Positions 40,500 to 62,906 of a stretch of DNA of 64,000 nt are shown here, in pieces; within the stretch, counting starts at the first letter, position 1; the number at the start of each line of letters is the position of its first letter. The notes under the pieces were generated by a model. The model had not been told where the DNA came from. It was given only the letters and a program-made list of their open reading frames with translations, and did not search any database. Source of the stretch: Catenaria anguillulae PL171 (Eukaryota > Blastocladiomycota > Blastocladiomycetes > Blastocladiales > Catenariaceae); contig MCFL01000002.1 of assembly GCA_002102555.1 (NCBI GenBank), positions 248,001 through 312,000 of the forward strand, written 5' to 3'. The position numbers and the translations under genes are program-made.

Positions 40500-42231
40500 T
40501 CAATCGTTGGACAAAAGCATGATTTTCGAGGCCACCAAAAACAACTCATCATGCGAATACAGCAAGTCACCAGTAACGCAGACGCGAGAGCCGGACTGCG
40601 GCGCACTGTTGAGAGCATGAAAGTGAATCAAAGCAGCACATTCATGAATGAAATGGAGCGAGAACACGTACGTACAGAGACCCACGCACAAGCACAGGAA
40701 CCAATGTGCCATTGACGTTAATGTCAAGCAAACGACCAACCCACAGGTCCTGGTGCATTTCACCCACGGTTGTTCCGATCGGCTGCGTCTTGTCGGTGCC
40801 GTGAGCCCATTGAAGAACAGGCAGATCCGACCTGAAGATGGACTTGACGTAGGCGTTGAACCGTTCCTTGAACTGCAAGTACGAAAACACATGGTGATGA
40901 GTTGATAAAACATGAGGGAACGACGGAAAAGCAACAAGAGGACGTACGGCTTGCACCTTGATGCACTCCAACCACTCAGCCTGCGTCCGTGGCATGCCCA
41001 CAATCCACGCCACACCATGATGGTGAACCGTCAACCGCCCCTGTGACTCCTCGGCGTAATAGAACGCATCGAGGTACCCAAACACGCCACCATCCTTGTG
41101 CGGCCGCCGGTTCTTGGTGTCCCACCCGAAAATCTTCTCGATCAACACTTGCGTGCACCACAAGTAGTACGACGCTTGGCCAACCAGATCACGGGCATTG
41201 AGGTCCACCTTGACCGCATTGGGGTTCGCCGTCGGGTCCTTGAGGAAATCCTCGTAAGACGACTGTTTCAGACCCTCCGGACCGCTCGCCAGAATGTGCA
41301 AGCTGTAAGACTTGTCCGGGTTGGGCACAAAGGTCCAAAACAGGGATGGCGACCCATGCTTGATCATGAGGGCGTCAAGATCCTTGCGCATTGTGTCGCG
41401 CTCGCCGTTGGTGCCCCACATGCGAGAAACAGACGACGCAATCAACTTGAACACCTCGCCGGCACCACTCGCGACCACGCCAGCTGGAGCTTGAGGAATC
41501 GGGCGACCTACACGCGCTGCACGTTGCACCTCCATTTCGTGCTTCAGACCGGCAACGAATTGGTCTTTGCTGATGGTGTTGGCAACCTTGATGACGTCGG
41601 GCGAGTGCAGCGCGCGCAGGTAGGTGTTGTTCATGACGCGGGCTTTGGCGAGCAGGTCAAAGGCAAAAAACTTGAACGTGCGGTCCTGAGCAAAGCGGCG
41701 GTCGTGCTGCAGGAGGAGGCACTGGACAATCTCGGCCTTAGAATAGTGGTTGCGGCGGCGAGCGAAACGTAAATCGTCATCCGACACGGCATCATCCTTT
41801 GCTGACACCGGCCACGCCAACACGCCGAACGGGTCAAGGTGCGGGAAGAGCATGGTGATCTGTTGGACGTCGCGCGAGTCGATGTACTTTTGCGAGTGGT
41901 GTACGTGCGCGATACCTCTACCCTCCCACCCCCCTGCCGCCTCGCGTGACTTGTCGTCGCCATCATTGCCCGACTCGCCTGCATCGCCATCGTTCTCCCC
42001 ATCGTCGTCGCCGGATCCCTCGTCTTGCGACTCGTTGGCCTTTGCCGCATGCCGCTCAACCTGCCTATCGCCCAAGTCCACATCCGAGTCTGACTTGGCG
42101 CCACCAACCTGCTCAGGATCGTGCTCCAGGTGCGGCAAATCGTGGTCCAGGTGCACATGGTCGACAAGGGCGGCGGGATCGTCGGCAAACTCGGTGTTGG
42201 CTGCTGCCTCGTTGAATGCTTCCCGAGACAT
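40500..42231 (-). mobile_element. Orphan Helitron Rep-like protein (Helitron_like_N), helicase missing
   Basis: Three exons can be read: 42231-40948, 40872-40676 and 40605-40500 (528 aa from the ATG at 42231; the frame is open up to 42294). Donors are both GTACGT. The core matches the Helitron N-terminal domain: KHGSPSLFWTFVPNP, DPTANPNAVKVDLNARDLVG, the replication-initiator style HUH motif in GRLTVHHHGVAWIVGMPRTQ, and AEWLECIKVQA. The first 110 residues are acidic (Asp/Glu/His). Rolling-circle Helitrons carry Rep plus a Pif1-like helicase on one protein; here the frame ends shortly after Rep with no helicase. So this is a truncated element or a host-captured Rep domain. The first intron is 75 nt and stop-free. 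Confidence 0.72.
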
Positions 42232-42294
42232 CTGACCCGACTCGCACGCACGCTTGAGGTTGCCGACGGAATCTTGCGATGAGCCGTCGCACAA

Positions 42295-42727
42295 GATGGC
42301 AGTACTCTACATGTATTCATAGGTAAACTCATAACTGACAGGAAAAGCATTTTGTGAAATCCAGAGCCACGCCGTTCATGAGTACACACGTGAGTGCCCA
42401 GAGGGGCCGGGCTGAGCAGCTGGTGAGATGTCAAGCCAACATCCCTCGCTGGATCGACTTTGGTGAATCGACGACCGACGCGTCCGCTTCATCGCGTCTG
42501 CTTCAGCATTATAGGGTTTCTTGCCATCATCTGGATTCGAACTTTCGGCCTTGCGATTGAAAGGGTGACGCGTAAGGGGCGTCTTAAACAAACGGCGGAG
42601 GGACTAAGGGGACAGACCCCCTCATGGAGACGATTATGGAGTGACTCATTCTCATTTTCATTCTCATGCACATGCCCATGCAGTCCAGGATACCAAAAAC
42701 ACTCGTTGAAACACACGCCCACACACC
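42295..42727. other. Intergenic between Helitron-like ORF and RFC gene
   Basis: Should contain the Helitron 5' flank and the RFC promoter. A T/C-rich repeat (ctcattctcattttcattct, 42647-42666) lies about 60 nt before the RFC ATG. Confidence 0.4.
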
Positions 42728-54223: not shown

Positions 54224-57200
54224 TTACAAATCAAAGCGAATTCCCAAATCAAAAAAGACAGCTCTTCTTCGATCCGCCATACTTTGAGAACTTGTCATTG
54301 GCGACTGGGATGATGTATCGCGACCCGTCTGAGCCCGGAGCCACGGCCACATTACCACTGGAAACTGTTCCAAAAGCTCAGACACGTCAACCATCAGTGC
54401 TTCAACGCGCTCGATTGCGTCTGGACGGGAACACGCGAATTCAAAGTCGGATCCGCCCATTCCGGCCGATTGAGAATATTGGCCGACGCAGAAGCTTCGG
54501 GTGCCGTGCGCTACGAATGCACAAGTGGTCGCGTGCGTGAATCGAGATCACCGGTGAGTCAGCCAGTTTTTGCTTGTTGACCATGATTTGAAGAATGTGC
54601 GTACCTGGCCTGCCATCCACCAACCGCGTCGCCAACCCCCTTGCAATCATCACCACCTTCTGGTCGGGTGTCGACGTCACCTGGACGGCCCGGATCGCAC
54701 GATGATTGTCGACCACAACACCAAGTTCGCGGTCTACTTGCTTCCAGCGCAGCAGCGGGTGAGGGTGGTACACGGACGAATGAAACACCTTGCCCGGTTT
54801 GCCCGTGAGCACGCGAAACGTCGATGTAGAATATCCAGAACACGATGCGCCTACGCCATACATGGCGCAAGATTCACCGGCAAACACCATCCCAAACTGC
54901 ATCTTGTCGCCAGCAACGCACCAGGCAATGTAGGCCGGGCTGGAAGGTGTGCCGCCTGCGACAATGGGTTGGCAGCCCTTGGACTTTGCGTCAGCAAGCG
55001 TGTTCCATTCGAAATGGCGGTAAAAGAAAATGTTGTCGTGGTCAGCAAGCAGGATTTCGAGCTGGATACCCGAGCGAGGGAGCGAGCGGCGCGTTGTGGT
55101 TTCGGATTCTGGGTCGACTCGGGTTGAAAACAGGATCATCTTGTCCTCGTCAACAGCAGCACCGTCGTTTTTGGGCGAGAGACTGGATGCCGAGAGCGGG
55201 CAAACGACCTCGAAATGCACTTGGCCATCCCGAGCAAGAGCTTGCCCGGGAGAACAGTGTCTCGTGAAAAGCGGTAGCGGGCGCAATAGGTTTGCCGGCG
55301 TGGGAAGTCAATGCCCATCTAGATAAGTTGGTAGTCAGGGTTTGGGATCACTTGGCTATTGATGGACACGAACATACGACTCCAGCTTGAGGGTAAAATG
55401 GCTCGTCGAGCGAATATGGCACCCACTCGAGAATGCGGTCGGCTGGATTTTCGATTGATGACGGAATGTGAACGTTACGTCCCTATTCAATGAAAGTCAG
55501 TTGCACCATCGTTGTGAGAATTTCACATCAAGCATCCGTACTCTTGTCAACCAAGAAAATGAGGATGTTTGTGCCGCCATTCCAACAACAGGCGCATAAC
55601 AAACCCAACCATTGTGTTCGCCTTGGTAGGTGAACGTTGGCACATATTCCTGCTGGTCTGCTTGCTGTACCAATGCCCGCACAATGTATACGGGCTTTCC
55701 CGCAATCCTCCCTCCGACAACCGCATTGGGCGGAGGCATCACGTAATCAGTATCCGCCGGCATCCAGGCGGTCAGAGGAAACGGCATATCTGAAGTTGTG
55801 GCAAAGAAATCGTCTGAAAAGAAAAGCGGGAATGTCAGACTTGAGGTTCTTGTACAAGTGTAACCATGTATTTATATGTACAAGCGACATGAAGCAATAA
55901 CGTACAGTTGCACGTCCAATCATTCACGCCATACATTCCTTCCCATCCATACCAAACCAGTGCACGCATGGCCAGCGACGAAATGTCAATCATGAACGTC
56001 AAGTCCAGGCCCTCGCAAACAGCACCCAAGGCAAATGTGGCATGTTCAATGTGGTCCCAGCCGACATGTTTTCCCTCCATTACGTGCCCAGTCGCGATCG
56101 GATGGTCACGGTTGAGCGTGCTCGGTTCTGAGCGATGCGCCTCGGCCAAGTGGTGAAACAGCTGATGTAACAGCCGCAGCTCCTTGAGCAAATGAAGATG
56201 GACGACCATCGCGCTTGTGTCTGCGTGTCGGTAATGAAGGGCGTGCATACACTCGTTCCACGTTGGTTCTGGCGCGGCAAGCGTGGATCGAACACGAGAT
56301 AGGGCGGCCCTTGCGCAATCGAGCTGGTCAAAGTACAGCTGTGGATCCATGTACGAAAATAGATTGTCACTGAGGGCCAGGCAGTAGTCGCCCAAGGTTG
56401 CGATTTTCGAGTCGAGGAGCCGCCAAAAAGTGCTGAATCGGGCGGTCGGCGGTTGTTGGCGGATTGAGTCGCAAATGTCTTGGCACAACTGTGCCGCCGC
56501 ATGGAATCTATACACAAATGCGTTAGCATAGTCGACTGAGAAGAGGAAATGAGATGTCCGCAAGCAGAAACATACTGCCGCGTCTCGAAGTCATCCGTCA
56601 CGAAAAGAATGACACGGGCCCAGTCAAGTAAAGAGAGATCCCAAGGAAAGAATGAGTTGAGCTCGCTCACCGTCACATTTCCCTACCGGATGCACGAACA
56701 CACAGATGTCAGGCAAATGCCTATGGGCTATGGCTCTCCTGTCAAGAACGGGCAAGATAACAACGGACCTCACTGTGCGTGCCTTGATTCGAGTCCAACC
56801 GGCCAAGTGCCACCGGGAACCGATCCATAATTACAAGAAACACATCATCGTGTATCAACCCATGGAAGCGGGCTGTCGAAGCCTCCATTCTCACGACATC
56901 CATGAGCAGCTCGGTCAGCCGCTGGGTTGCCACCGACAATCCCCACCCAGCCCGCCGCCACAGCTCCCGTATCGCGGCACACTGAATGTCCTTGTACGCG
57001 TCGCCACGAGTCGACAAAGTCGCAACTTGATGGTCGAGCTGCTCGAGCCTGGTTGTTTGACCCATCATGGTGGACAGCACCGTGTCCAAGTAGCGCTCAA
57101 GATCTTCGTACGTGCCAGCGATTTCTCGGACATGGCCCGATGAGTATTCCACGCCAACAAGTCGAGCGAGGGCGCTAATCTTTTCGGGAATGCCTTGGAC

Positions 57201-58460
57201 GGCAGCTGGACCTCCATTGAGCTCGATGAACGACTCGACTTGAGCGTCTACGGCGTCGTCTTGATTGGTCACTGTTGTAACAGAGTCGAGGCGAAGCACA
57301 GTATCCAGCTGGAGGGTGACCGAGAGGTGCGTCAGAGCGTTGCCGAGGTGTTGATTGAGGAGGTCAAGTCGCTGTCGGTTTTGAGACGAATAGAAGCGCT
57401 GTGTACACACGAGGGGGTATACATATCAGTGAATGGGCGTGGGATACACACTCAGCGTGACATTTTAGATGGTTCGCACGCGCTGCAGGGGAGTCTGTGA
57501 TCGATACTTGAGAAAAAACTTGGTGGACGCCTCCACAGCTCCCGACACCTCGGCCAGTATCTGTTGTGCAGTATCCGGCCGCCAATGACCCGAGTCGTAG
57601 AGCCGTTGAATCACGGCCACCACGTACACGACGCGGTTGAAGAGCAGACCAGCCTGATCTCGGTTATCTTCCGTCACGCGCTCGATTCCAACCATGACCT
57701 CAAGGCACCGTGCGAGTGCGCCAATGACTGGCGTATTGCCAGCGACGGACCGCAAGAATCGAACAAGGCCGAGGGCTTGGTCAACCTTTTGAGTGCGAAG
57801 TGGATCAACGTCCTCGATCAAATCCTCCTCGAGTTCCGGCCCGCTGAGAAAGCCGACCCGCTTGCCAGTTGGTCGCGACGGGGGCCGTTTTGCGACTGGA
57901 TTCTGTTGGAGCATAACTGGCAATCGTTTCGAGGGCATTTTGACGAGCAACCGACTTTGCGTTTCAGCTGCGCGCAGAGAATCTGTCCGCCGATCCCCCA
58001 CCCTTTTCAGCCGTGAGTGCCGTGTGGATGCGAGGACAAGCATGGATGACGGAGTGCCGTTGACGTCGATGCTCGTCAAGGATTGCGAATCGAAAAATGT
58101 GCCTTTGGTTTGACTAGACGTGCTTGCAAAGCTTCCTGAACTGCTGGGCCATGTTGGTATCAGGCTGGCGTACAAGGTGAGCCGGTCCTGGTTGGGATCG
58201 GGTTGATCAAGTGAAATCGTCGACGACTGGGACCATTCGAGTGACCCTGCGTCGGTCTGGGGCACGTCATTATATTTGTGATGGCCACTTGAGAGTGTTT
58301 CCGTATCACACATTCGGGCGGCAGGCCTTGGCCGGGCAGCCCAAGATCGCGACTTGGTGGTGAGGGAGCCAATGCGCGCGGCGGCAGGGGTTCGGCGGCA
58401 TGAATCATCGGGCAGGGAGTCACTGTTGGCGCTGCGAGACTGGAGAGGTGCGGATGCCAT
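54224..58460 (-). pseudogene. DM9-repeat/helical-bundle protein, tandem copy A, one-base frameshift
   Basis: Paralogue of the gene at 58679-62906. Exons: 58460-57480, 57398-56769, 56682-56576, 56507-55906, 55813-55542, 55482-55378, 55318-54605 and 54510-54224. The exons of 107 and 105 nt match copy B in length. Order: disordered N-terminus; helical bundle (VDQALGLVRFLRSVAGNTPV, LARCLEVMVGIERVTEDNRD); long helical region; DM9-like repeats starting AWMPADTDYVMPPPNAVVGG. Exon 7 lacks one base relative to copy B (near 55229): after RDTVLPGKLLL the frame runs to a stop at 55136, removing the last 270 or so residues. Otherwise the exons are open, so this is either a very young pseudogene, a truncated functional allele or a sequence error. 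Confidence 0.7.
54601..55229. repeat. Near-identical tract, copy A (partner 59004-59632)
   Basis: 629 nt matching the partner with one substitution (ttttt against ttttc near 55171). Identity starts at the intron donor gtacctgg (written on the plus strand) and decays after about 55290. Coding regions outside the tract are strongly diverged. Confidence 0.95.
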
Positions 58461-58678
58461 TGCTTTGCCTGCGTTGCACGTCGTTTTGTTTAGTTCATTG
58501 ATTCATGATGGGAACGAAGTCTGAGGTCCAAGGTGATTCGATATGATCGACGCCGCGACGAAGGCAAGGGAAAGGACATGGCAGCCTGAGGGCAGGCTGG
58601 CGAGGCAGTGTATTTATGAAGCCCACGGAGCAAGAAAACGTATATTGACACACAAAATAGTAGGTACATTTCAATTCG
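58461..58678. other. Short spacer between tandem paralogues
   Basis: Only 218 nt separate the stop of copy B from the ATG of copy A, so the copy A promoter must be compact or overlap the copy B 3' end. Confidence 0.5.
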
Positions 58679-61600
58679 TCACACTTCAAACCGCACGCCC
58701 AAATCGAACAAGACATGGTTGGGATTGGCACCGCCAGACTCGCTCTCTCGCGCCCGCAGCCAGGGTCTCAGAGTGATTGGGAACTGTGCAAAGAGCTCGG
58801 TGGCATCCACCATCAAGGCTTCAATCTTCACAAGCTCGTTCTTGACCAAGAATGCAAAATCAAAGTCGGAGCCGCGAGTGCCGGGCGCTTGCGTGTACTG
58901 ACCGACACAGTATGTGCGATTGCCGTTGGCTAGCATGGTTGCACAAGCGTGTGAGTGGGGTGAGCACATTTGACACTGAGTATAAGCAAAAGAGGAGGGA
59001 CATGTACCTGGCCTGCCATCCACCAACCGCGTCGCCAACCCCCTTGCAATCATCACCACCTTCTGGTCGGGTGTCGACGTCACCTGGACGGCCCGGATCG
59101 CACGATGATTGTCGACCACAACACCAAGTTCGCGGTCTACTTGCTTCCAGCGCAGCAGCGGGTGAGGGTGGTACACGGACGAATGAAACACCTTGCCCGG
59201 TTTGCCCGTGAGCACGCGAAACGTCGATGTAGAATATCCAGAACACGATGCGCCTACGCCATACATGGCGCAAGATTCACCGGCAAACACCATCCCAAAC
59301 TGCATCTTGTCGCCAGCAACGCACCAGGCAATGTAGGCCGGGCTGGAAGGTGTGCCGCCTGCGACAATGGGTTGGCAGCCCTTGGACTTTGCGTCAGCAA
59401 GCGTGTTCCATTCGAAATGGCGGTAAAAGAAAATGTTGTCGTGGTCAGCAAGCAGGATTTCGAGCTGGATACCCGAGCGAGGGAGCGAGCGGCGCGTTGT
59501 GGTTTCGGATTCTGGGTCGACTCGGGTTGAAAACAGGATCATCTTGTCCTCGTCAACAGCAGCACCGTCGTTTTCGGGCGAGAGACTGGATGCCGAGAGC
59601 GGGCAAACGACCTCGAAATGCACTTGGCCGTCCTCGAGCAAGAGCTTGCCCGGGAGAACAGTGTCTTGTGAAAAGCGGTAGCGAGCGCAATAAGTTTGGT
59701 GATGTGGAAGCTCGACGCCAATCTGGACCGGGAAGCGTGTCAATGTCGGCAAACATATACGGGGCAGGATCTATTTGGACAACGTACCACACCGGCTCGA
59801 GGATACGGTCCATCGTCCAGAGACATGGGTTTCCACACGAGTACACGGTCGGCTGGGTTGTCTACCGTTGATGGGTGGTGAACGCCGCGGCCCTGCTCAG
59901 CCAACAGGAGTCAGTGTCCTGCATCCACGAAAATCAGAAAAGGCTCGGGCGTACCCTTGTCAGCCAATCAAAATGGACCGCATTCTTTGCCTCCATCATG
60001 CTTGGAACCACACATTGCCACTCACTTCGCGGTCCTTCAAAGGCGTATGCCGGAACCAAATCATGACAAACCCCGCGCTCGACCTGGCCTCGGACAATGT
60101 AGACAGGTTTACCCCGGAGCATCCCGCCCACGACCGCATTGGTTGGCAGATCGCGCTCGAATTTGGACGGCATCCACGCCGTCAACGGGAATGGCAAATC
60201 CATTGTTGTTACAAAGAAATCATCTGTCAATGCCTCGATACGTCAGACGAGAAAACCTGCGCGTGAAGTGTGGACAAGCGGACGTACAATTACAAGCCCA
60301 ATCATCCGTGTCCCACGTGGCCATCCACCCGTACCATGTGGATGCCTGCATGGCAAGTGTCGTGACTTGAAACATGGCATCTGGATCGAGCTCCTCGCAC
60401 ACGGCGCCCAGCGCAAACGCGACTTCTTGAATATCCTCCCAGGAAACATCCTGCCAAGCTGCCGCCGAACTCTCATTGGAACCGCCCGCACCACTCTTGG
60501 GACTCGGTGGCATACACAATGGGTCAACGCACATGTGTTCAATCAACCACTGCAACGACCGGAGCTCGCTCAGCAAGCGCGAGTGGATCAAGAGTGCGCT
60601 AGGATTGGCGTGGCGCCGGCGCAAGCCCGTCAGCCACGAATTCCAGCTCGTTTCCGATAATTGAAGGGCGGCTTGGACTTGAGCGAGCGCGGCGTTGGCA
60701 TGGTCCAGTTGACCGAAGTAGAGCTTGGCGTCCATGAAAGTAAACTGGTTGTCGCGCAGGGTCTGGCAATAGTCACCGAGAGTTGAAAGCTTGGTTTTTA
60801 GAAGGTGGAAAAAGGTCGAATACGGTGCCGAGTATGGTAGGTCGTCAATGGCGGCGCAAACGGCGCGACAAGTATCGAACGCGGCGCGGTACCTGTGGGC
60901 GGATAAGTGAGCATATGCGACACACAGTTGCATAAGGCAGAAAAATCGTGATTGTACGTACTGAAGGGTCTCAAAGTCGTCTATCACAAAAAGCACAACG
61001 AGCGCCCAGTCAAGCAGCGTCAGGTCCCACGGAAAGAAAGTGTTGACTTCAGCCACGGTAATGTCGGCCTGGTGCAACGGAAATCGAGTCAGCTTGAGGA
61101 TCGCCCGGCATTGAAATCTGTTGAAAAACGAAAACATATGTACCTGTGAGCGCACACCATCTGGATCCAGCCGCTGCAACGCAATAGGGAACTGGTCCAT
61201 GACCACACTCATCACCTCCTTGTCCAACCTCCCGTCCGCCTTGGCTGCGCCCGCCTCGGCCCGCACCTCGTCTTGCAACACCTCGGCCAGGCGCCGCACC
61301 GGCACGGCCAATCCCCATCCAGCACGCTTCCACAATTCGCGAATCTCGGTGCACTTGATCTCCTGATACGCGGCACCACGCCGCGTCAACGTCAACACTT
61401 CGCGCCCAACCTCCTCTAACCGCGCTGAATGCCCGACCATGGCTGCAAGCACCGCATCAAATTGTGTCGACAATTGCCGCTCGAGATCTTCAAATGTGCC
61501 CGAGATTTCAGTCACGAGCGCCGTGTTGAATTCAACACCGACGAGTTGTGCGAGCTCAGACACTTTTTCCGGGTTGGATTGAATGGCGAGCGGGCCACCG

Positions 61601-62906
61601 TTGAGCTGAATAAAGGATTCAACCTGTGCATCGAGCTCGTCTTGGTCGGCAAAGTCGGTGGTGGGTTCAAGGCGGAGTACGGTTTCGAGTTGCAGGTTGA
61701 TTGACAGATGGGTGAGCGCCGAATTGAGGTGGGCGTCGAGGAGTTCCAGACGCTGCCGGTTTTGAGACGAGTAGAAGCGCTGCAGGATTCAAACTGGTGA
61801 GTGATCCATGTCGGCGCCCCTCCTAGGTCAATGAACGCGCATTGATAGCGCACCCGTTGCAAAACTGTTTGCGCTCGAAACTTGAAAAGGAATTGCGCAG
61901 ACGCGGCAAGAGCTCGGCAAACATCCTCGAGCACTCGGTCCGCATTCTCAACGTGCCAGCGACCCAGATCGAACAGGATGCGCACAGTATCCACGACAAA
62001 CACAACCCGGCTGAACAACAAGCTCGCCTTGTCTTGATTGTCTTCGACGGCTTTTTCAATCCCGAGCATGACCTATTGGCGTTGAGAATGACCGCAAAGT
62101 CAGTCCCAGTCACTGAAAAAAAAGGAAGTATCAGGAAATGTAAAAACCTCGAGGAGCTTTGCCAAGGTGCCTAACACTGGCGTATCTCCGGAAATCTCTT
62201 GCAGAAACTTGACGAGGGTTTCTGCGCGCTCCACGCGCGAAGTGCGCAACGGATCCAGCTTGAAAAACTCTGAATTGAGCCTGCCCGAGTCGCTCTCGAT
62301 CGTCGTCATGGAAACCGCGCCGCCACCGCCACCACCGCCGATGCTCCGATCAGCCGTTGAGTTATCCATGGATTCACGGGCTTGCAGGCCGGTCGAGGCA
62401 GCGGGCGCGCTGGCAACCGAAGATGGCCGACGTGCCTGATTCCGTTTCGGTTTCGGTGATGAGGCCGTGCGACGATGTTTGCCAGAGCGATGGGCAAAAT
62501 CATTTGCAGGTTTCCGTGAAGGTTGCGGGTCCTCGGTAGTCGCATCAGCGTTGCTTGGAGGCGGACTCTCAATTCCACTGTGGACGAGCGTCGGATCATC
62601 GTCGGCGACGGATTCGCCTGCTGCGTTTGTGCCGGGCACTGGCGGCGTCCTTGGTGGGTCACACGCGTCTGGCTTCATGTTCGTAAGCGGCCCAGTGCTA
62701 CTGCTGGACTTGCGACGCCGCGACTTGGCGGATGCTGATGAGCGCCACCCAAGATTTCTCGCGAGAGACCGACGGATCTGTGCGATGACCGAGAGGGACG
62801 CATTTGAGCGGGCTGGCGGCTTGGACGTGGCCGATACGGCCGGGGAATCTTCGGGAACCGAGCCCGCCACTTCGGGTGCTTGGATGCTCGGTACAGGGTC
62901 GGACAT
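58679..62906 (-). CDS. DM9-repeat/helical-bundle protein, tandem copy B, 1221 aa
   Basis: Nine exons, fully in frame: 62906-62148, 62072-61854, 61779-61144, 61068-60962, 60892-60288, 60223-59955, 59892-59788, 59722-59008 and 58929-58679. Residues 1-215 are Ser/Pro/Arg-rich. About 217-330 is a helical bundle (VERAETLVKFLQEISGDTPV, GTLAKLLEVMLGIEKAVEDN, ASLLFSRVVFVVDTV) that resembles HeLo/MLKL N-terminal bundles. Residues 330-775 are helical (REVLTLTRRGAAYQEIKCTE; NTFFPWDLTLLDWALVVLFV). About 790-1075 holds three DM9-like repeats: LPTNAVVGGMLRGKPVYIVR; VLVWKPMSLDDGPYPRAGV with RYRFSQDTVLPGKLL; and CQPIVAGGTPSSPAYIAWCV. A beta-rich C-terminal domain follows (RTYCVGQYTQ). There is no signal peptide or clear TM. 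DM9 modules bind mannose in animals; a sensor role here is inference. Confidence 0.75.
59004..59632. repeat. Near-identical tract, copy B (partner 54601-55229)
   Basis: Partner of the tract in copy A; direct orientation, about 4.4 kb apart. It covers the 3' 625 nt of exon 8, encoding the third DM9-like repeat and the start of the C-terminal domain. Confidence 0.95.

Follow-up and report, generated by a model that had tools for sequence, protein, structure and literature searches.

In mammals, the helical bundle of MLKL is released once the pseudokinase domain has been phosphorylated, and fungal HeLo bundles operate downstream of signals from amyloids and NLRs (PMC10197012, PMC12881547, PMC9815663). 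In the Podospora anserina protein BH (het-B), a HET death domain is combined with a lectin fold that determines the specificity of recognition (PMC10890737), and in natterins the partner of DM9 is an aerolysin domain (PMC8402412). Here, two tandem genes, copies A and B, were analysed in a 64,000 nucleotide stretch of Catenaria anguillulae PL171 (contig MCFL01000002.1, positions 248,001 to 312,000; the window). They belong to a real, conserved gene family whose members carry an MLKL-type helical bundle followed by a helical middle region and a beta-rich end with DM9-like repeats. Catenaria is a nematode-attacking fungus and is placed in the Blastocladiomycota.

When the whole of copy B was compared with Pfam at an E-value (E) of up to 10, only two families were recovered, MLKL_N (E 0.0023, residues 261-377) and DM9 (E 0.0026, residues 791-828), both below their cut-offs. 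The same search gave no match to a kinase or pseudokinase, HeLo, NACHT, NB-ARC, HET or aerolysin domain. The helical bundle is homologous to that of MLKL in a profile alignment to residues 17-143 of a Protein Data Bank (PDB) chain, but copy B differs from MLKL in having no pseudokinase match, an internal bundle and another C-terminal partner. HeLo, HELL and basidiomycete MLKL-like domains form one superfamily with MLKL according to published models (PMC9815663); however, no HeLo domain is recognised in copy B, and neither an amyloid motif nor an NLR is shown for the Catenaria family. The bundle of the MLKL and HeLo executioners is located at the extreme N-terminus, whereas approximately 215 residues precede it in copy B and in P0001, the public protein corresponding to copy A.

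BH also has a death domain and a lectin-like C-terminus setting specificity (PMC10890737), but its effector is HET/TIR-like and not MLKL-like, and its lectin fold is related to actinoporins, unlike the DM9-like repeats, making the likeness one of analogy and not of kinship. Natterins and the oyster proteins CGL1 and DM9CP (DM9, DUF3421, PF11901) share one DM9-like motif and an apparent repeat layout with the Catenaria proteins, and in natterins, too, DM9 is linked with a domain of the pore-forming type (PMC8402412, PMC4932603). The partner in natterins is, however, aerolysin, and the Catenaria repeats are degenerate and score below the Pfam cut-off. The Catenaria family may thereby be a counterpart, built from different parts, of the HET-lectin or NLR death proteins of fungi.

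Gene models and common architecture

Both copies were modelled by hand and with a splice-aware aligner, and the tandem paralogue pair that had been proposed from a sequence-only reading of the window was recovered with the same coordinates and strand (Table 1). The two models of copy B agree. Those of copy A have concordant borders, save for an intron added by the aligner in the divergent N-terminus, where P0001 is continuous. Residues 1-658 of copy A are identical to P0001 (BCR44DRAFT_74422, Catenaria anguillulae PL171). The joint architecture described in that reading was also found in both copies, the domain order being a disordered-looking N-terminus, the MLKL-type bundle, ∼400 mostly helical residues and the beta-rich DM9-like repeats. 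The description of the middle region is based on the Pfam search, in which copy B gave MLKL_N and DM9 only, and on helices in a low confidence model of copy A. The N-terminal 215 residues of copy B include 0/6 of the most hydrophobic 19-residue stretches. A secreted lectin or toxin was considered and dropped, as no hydrophobic start was found (judged from the hydrophobicity of stretches only).

A one-base frameshift is present in exon 7 of copy A near position 55231, and the counterpart of copy A on C423, part of which was modelled by the aligner, has an open frame from residue 217 to the end. Either an error in sequencing or a recent loss could account for the frameshift.

The public gene models found split this architecture. 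P0001 is 676 amino acids (aa) long and ends ahead of the beta-rich part, and the C-terminal parts are represented by separate fragments, P0002 (194 aa, copy A), P0003 (182 aa, copy B) and P0004 (478 aa, from the C13:300k gene described below). Each copy is interpreted as one gene and not two because a single uninterrupted frame spans the helical region and repeat 1 in the paralogues on C47 and C212 (392 and 377 codons, respectively) and because introns around the junction recur. The introns of copy B at residues 253, 326, 538, 573, 775 and 900 are found in at least one paralogue besides copy A, although not each one in every paralogue; their positions coincide or differ by a neighbouring residue, and the phase is mostly conserved. 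The intron at residue 865 is common to copy A and has a counterpart at 869 in C267. Introns 775 and 900 flank the junction between the helical and beta-rich parts.

The gene family and its haplotypes

A genome search with copy B gave 49 matches. Models were obtained for the window pair and its second copy on C423, for C68, and for three further pairs, C47 and C212, C13:400k and C267, and C13:300k and C227. Over the parts modelled, protein identities are 98.4% between copy B and its C423 counterpart, 95.8% between copy A and its counterpart, 97.2% for C47 and C212, 90.7% for C13:400k and C267, and 94.3% for C13:300k and C227. One flank of the C423 locus matches the window flank which, together with the high identity within pairs, suggests that each pair represents two haplotypes of a single locus. 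Counted in this way there are six distinct genes, namely A, B, C68, C47, C267 (with C13:400k) and C13b (C13:300k), four of which lie beyond the window pair. Distinct genes share 33-48% protein identity. The bundle region, helical middle and DM9-like repeat 1 occur in this order in 6/6 genes; several of the automatic models (e.g. C47, C212 and C227) do not cover the whole C-terminal part.

Between the haplotypes of copy B, the ratio of nonsynonymous to synonymous substitution rates (dN/dS) is 0.087 overall, with 21 nonsynonymous and 73 synonymous changes. It falls to 0.023 over residues 216-400 and 0.025 over residues 736-900, each including a single nonsynonymous change. For copy A, the ratio is 0.21 upstream of the exon shared by both copies (see below). 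The genes look maintained and are under purifying selection between haplotypes.

Relationship of the bundle to MLKL

The similarity to HeLo/MLKL-type bundles had been considered the weaker part of the sequence-only reading but is now the strongest, and the family recovered with the helical region is MLKL_N, not some unrelated scaffold. In a search with domain-cut sequences, PF22215 (MLKL_N) matched 6/6 paralogues at E ≤10, the best at 5e-9; an individual score was given for copy B only and is 22.1 bits, against a curated cut-off of 27. In longer cuts of four paralogues, C68 scored 34.4 bits, which is over the cut-off, C13b 24.0 and C47 13.6. A consensus of the six paralogues scored 36.4 bits, also over the cut-off, and ranked MLKL first among PDB sequences (E 0.0032). 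The profile built from the six paralogues retrieved 7 MLKL sequences from PDB with E between 4.2e-7 and 2.3e-4 (next match 0.3), and the best of these provides the alignment to residues 17-143 mentioned above. For copy A, PF22215.2 is precomputed on the record of P0001, the UniRef name of which starts with 'Mixed lineage kinase'; exon 2 alone gave E 0.067 and exon 1 alone was unmatched.

On these profile comparisons, homology of the Catenaria bundle to the MLKL bundle is established. Membership in MLKL proper is not, given the lack of a pseudokinase match and the internal position of the bundle. DUF7792 likewise scores on some family members.

The DM9-like repeats

Four degenerate repeats were counted by eye in copy B, where three had been counted in the sequence-only reading, and only repeat 1 matches the PF11901 profile. 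Its E improves to 8.5e-5 (22.9 bits; curated cut-off 26.2 bits) when the C-terminal part is searched separately. PF11901 matched 2/6 rows of the C-terminal alignment at E ≤10, of which this was the best, and three of eight further pieces (C68, B and A) with E from 0.0044 to 0.024. The B, A and C68 matches fall in one stretch of the profile, positions 56-93, though as paralogues these are not independent tests. A consensus of the three scored 22 bits with DM9, and none was detected with a consensus of C47, C267 and C13b. Repeats 2-4 of copy B have no Pfam match by themselves. When repeats were compared using hhalign, repeat 1 gave raw P values of 0.0044, 0.018 and 0.028 with repeats 2, 3 and 4, respectively, and the other 3/6 comparisons gave 0.08-0.24. 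A genome-wide search with PF11901 found no match and was uninformative, as 14 controls were equally silent.

The earlier description of DM9-like repeats stands for one repeat, which Pfam detects below the cut-off, but the remaining repeats are recognised by eye and by weak profile comparison. DM9 is the sole Pfam family besides MLKL_N detected in copy B, albeit below threshold. The C-terminal repeats are probably homologous to DM9.

Gene conversion of the repeat exon

Exon 8 of copy B and exon 7 of copy A are far more alike than the remainder of the two genes. Outside this shared exon, A and B are 31-67% identical in blocks of 150 columns, with 0.73 to 0.77 in the last block of 30. Inside it, identity is 94-100% on the window haplotype and 95-100% on C423, and 0.82-0.86 in the boundary block. 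Within the tract (651 columns), 22 sites are of haplotype type (A1=B1, A2=B2), 1 is of gene type and 10 are other, whereas the 3430 columns outside it include 0 haplotype-type, 1423 gene-type and 219 other sites. This pattern indicates that each chromosome homogenised its own A/B pair after the haplotypes parted. Conversion was confined to the exon for repeats 2-4 and occurred separately in each haplotype. One or two conversion events could produce the whole pattern. Assembly collapse was rejected as the source of the identical exon, as the haplotypes carry different versions.

In the part compared, 11 amino acid sites vary among the four copies, 7 of them haplotype-specific and 0 gene-specific. 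The shared exon holds 10/21 of the nonsynonymous haplotype changes in copy B (Fisher P 0.003), and synonymous changes are not enriched there (P 0.28).

Database and literature searches

A protein database search with copy B alone at E ≤0.001 returned nothing. As paralogue A was missed too, such a search overlooks relatives of moderate identity, and the empty result does not amount to absence from other species. The profile of the six paralogues retrieved one protein, P0001, and the C-terminal profile retrieved three fragments from the same species at E ≤1. None of 91 pattern matches in bacterial and archaeal contigs was confirmed, plasmids gave no match, and 0/3 proteins matched NCBIfam at E ≤0.1.

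No literature joining DM9, fungi and MLKL was found, most subscription papers and preprints being outside the coverage. Within that coverage, MLKL and DM9 appear together in one paper, on a receptor-prediction method (PMC7002473). Among the matches listed for Catenaria or Allomyces, none concerned MLKL. A survey of early-diverging fungi reported MLKL-family homologues exclusively in Glomeromycotina (PMC8778642), and Catenaria is unnamed in its main text. The family had been called undescribed in the sequence-only reading. This applies to the joined architecture, which is new within the searches made, but not to the MLKL link of copy A, already present in the automatic UniRef and Pfam annotation.

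Other genes with the bundle and the window neighbourhood

Counting haplotype pairs once, nine genes match MLKL_N fully or weakly, six of the DM9 type, two in which a bundle is combined with a kinase and one weaker kinase. The bundle-kinase genes on C10 (46.6 bits) and C425 (44.5 bits) exceed the MLKL_N cut-off. They resemble the DM9-type genes in this match but differ in that the bundle is apparently N-terminal and is followed by a kinase. On C10, the bundle and a tyrosine-kinase-like kinase are in one frame. On C425, neighbouring frames, not spliced, hold the kinase and a part with weak likeness to Kelch (E 0.012). The bundle profile scored weakly when it was compared directly with the C10 kinase (raw P 0.0034, probability 9.5%). 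In C79, a single open frame contains a weak match to MLKL_N (18.5 bits) followed by a kinase and an SH3 domain. As kinases of the same genome carry it, the bundle appears in combination with several partners. By eye, the kinase parts of C10 and C425 share long identical stretches, a likeness that suggests recent conversion or duplication. A frame that looks similar to the weakly Kelch-like one of C425 is present on C10.

HeLo (PF14479) was not found genome-wide at E ≤0.1 in an exon-wise search, which can miss genes. In the window, 10 of the 36 frames of at least 260 codons were scanned at E ≤1e-4. These comprised five housekeeping-type genes (fatty-acid enzyme, RFC-like AAA ATPase, serine hydroxymethyltransferase, HSF-type factor and carbonic anhydrase), one Helitron frame and four unmatched frames, and no NLR or other immune gene was among them. 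The Helitron helicase-like frame (PF14214) lies at 40645-42306 and has copies with 82-83% DNA identity on C37 and C147.

Table 1. Features of copies A and B, with positions counted from the first base of the window.
Feature	Position	Strand	Details
Copy B	62906-58679	-	9 exons, 1221 aa, open; introns GT-AG; hand model and splice-aware aligner model agree
Copy B exons	62906-62148, 62072-61854, 61779-61144, 61068-60962, 60892-60288, 60223-59955, 59892-59788, 59722-59008, 58929-58679	-	
Copy B N-terminus, residues 1-215	62262-62906	-	disordered-looking, Ser/Pro- and Arg/Lys-rich; by eye
Copy B MLKL_N-type four-helix bundle region, residues 261-377	61627-62051	-	exon 2 and start of exon 3; PF22215 E 0.0023, below cut-off
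Copy B middle region, ∼residues 378-775	60288-61626	-	mostly helical-looking; no named family
Copy B DM9-like repeat 1	59955-60223	-	exon 6; PF11901 at residues 791-828
Copy B DM9-like repeats 2, 3, 4 and C-terminal tail	58679-59892	-	exons 7-9; pattern by eye, weak repeat-to-repeat scores
Copy B exon 8, gene-conversion partner	59008-59722	-	core blocks 94-100% identical to copy A exon 7
Copy A	58460-54224	-	8 exons, frameshift in exon 7; hand model and splice-aware aligner
Copy A exons	58460-57480, 57398-56769, 56682-56576, 56507-55906, 55813-55542, 55482-55378, 55318-54605, 54510-54224	-	
Copy A bundle region, residues 262-379	57243-57677	-	end of exon 1 and start of exon 2; alignment to copy B
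Copy A DM9-like repeat 1	55542-55813	-	exon 5; PF11901 E 0.024, 15 bits, below cut-off
Copy A exon 7, gene-conversion partner	54605-55318	-	frameshifted near 55231

Proposed function and alternatives

The reading favoured here, with a probability of about 0.45, is that these are one-piece intracellular sensors in which the DM9-like end controls a membrane-attacking MLKL-type bundle. The large and most likely intracellular protein would combine sensor and effector. The C-terminal beta repeats would bind a ligand, either a glycan or a protein surface, and the long helical middle would keep the four-helix bundle inactive until ligand binding frees or clusters it. The freed bundle may then attack a membrane and kill or damage the cell, as a defence when an intruder or non-self cytoplasm is present. 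If the helix mechanism of MLKL holds, the N-terminal extension would, speculatively, need to be cleaved or unfolded. The terms 'recognition plus executioner' and 'non-self sensor' in the sequence-only reading may apply, and a division of labour in which the repeats sense and the bundle acts is plausible by analogy with the systems described above.

Several results weigh against this proposal, and the main objection is the internal bundle. The membrane-attacking part of MLKL and HET-S is described as an N-terminal helix of the bundle (PMC10197012, PMC12881547, PMC9815663), and apparent N-terminal extensions are present in the other paralogues as well, in models with provisional start codons. 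Copy B alone is under the MLKL_N cut-off and gave three chance-like matches to PDB sequences, with E 1.2 or worse and none of them MLKL; in the longer cuts, C47 reached only E 0.05 with MLKL_N and C267 was unmatched at E ≤0.05. All DM9 matches are below the cut-off, 5/8 pieces were without one (including P0004 and the C47 and C267 repeats), the six-row consensus matched Ornatin instead (E 0.0072), and two profiles did not find any DM9 structure in PDB. Two structure models made with shallow alignments, the first of P0001, have mean predicted local distance difference test (pLDDT) scores of 36.7 and 32.2 and are too poor for use, and fold searches with these low confidence models returned nothing at E ≤0.001. 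The P0001 model places helices at residues 220-242, 244-262, 267-289, 295-321 and 324-363, a block with pLDDT mostly 48-59 (low confidence). The conversion pattern comes from two haplotypes only. Finally, NACHT and NB-ARC were not found genome-wide at E ≤0.001 in an exon-wise search that can miss genes and, as no such gene was found, nothing independent points to immunity.

An alternative that is possible, if rather unlikely, is that the bundle is an interaction or scaffold domain of the MLKL superfamily and the protein a regulatory adaptor, both parts of which bind partners, for example in development or signalling. The internal position of the bundle would suit such a role, as would its occurrence in kinases of the same genome, and purifying selection is strongest in the bundle and repeat 1, as in a conserved adaptor. 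However, the described MLKL, HeLo and plant homologues are cell-death effectors in the text available (PMC10197012, PMC12881547, PMC9815663), and the concentration of conversion and allelic amino acid change in one repeat exon is a better fit to a recognition part. It is unlikely that the beta-rich end is an unrelated beta domain with a chance likeness to one DM9 motif, which would leave the sensor idea as analogy alone. This would explain why the sub-threshold matches cover at most 38 residues and only repeat 1, and find no structural support in the PDB profiles, the model or the fold search. Set against it are the absence of any other Pfam family besides MLKL_N for copy B at E ≤10, the coincidence of the B, A and C68 matches in the same profile stretch (in paralogues, hence not independent), and the resemblance between repeat 1 and the other repeats, which is weak but ordered. 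A splice-modelling artefact that fused two neighbouring genes in each copy, one for the helical MLKL_N part and another for the beta repeats, is highly improbable. The fusion is predicted from gene models, and the public models end copy A early and list the C-terminal proteins separately, but P0002 and P0003 start at a methionine within repeat 3, the frame is uninterrupted across the junction in C47 and C212, and introns around the junction appear again in paralogues, with matching positions and, for the most part, matching phases.

The one-piece sensor proposal can be extended, though doubtfully, to a family of lectin-type intracellular receptors, in an early-diverging fungus, that kill via an MLKL-type bundle and in which the repeat exon, matched between tandem members within each haplotype by conversion but differing between haplotypes, could serve as an allorecognition or pathogen-recognition allele. 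If this receptor reading is true, execution of the necroptosis type would occur independently of NLRs in a lineage close to the root of the fungi, and if the bundle kills, the coupling of necroptosis-like execution to a non-NLR sensor would be old in fungi. The family also illustrates that split gene models can conceal a receptor architecture.

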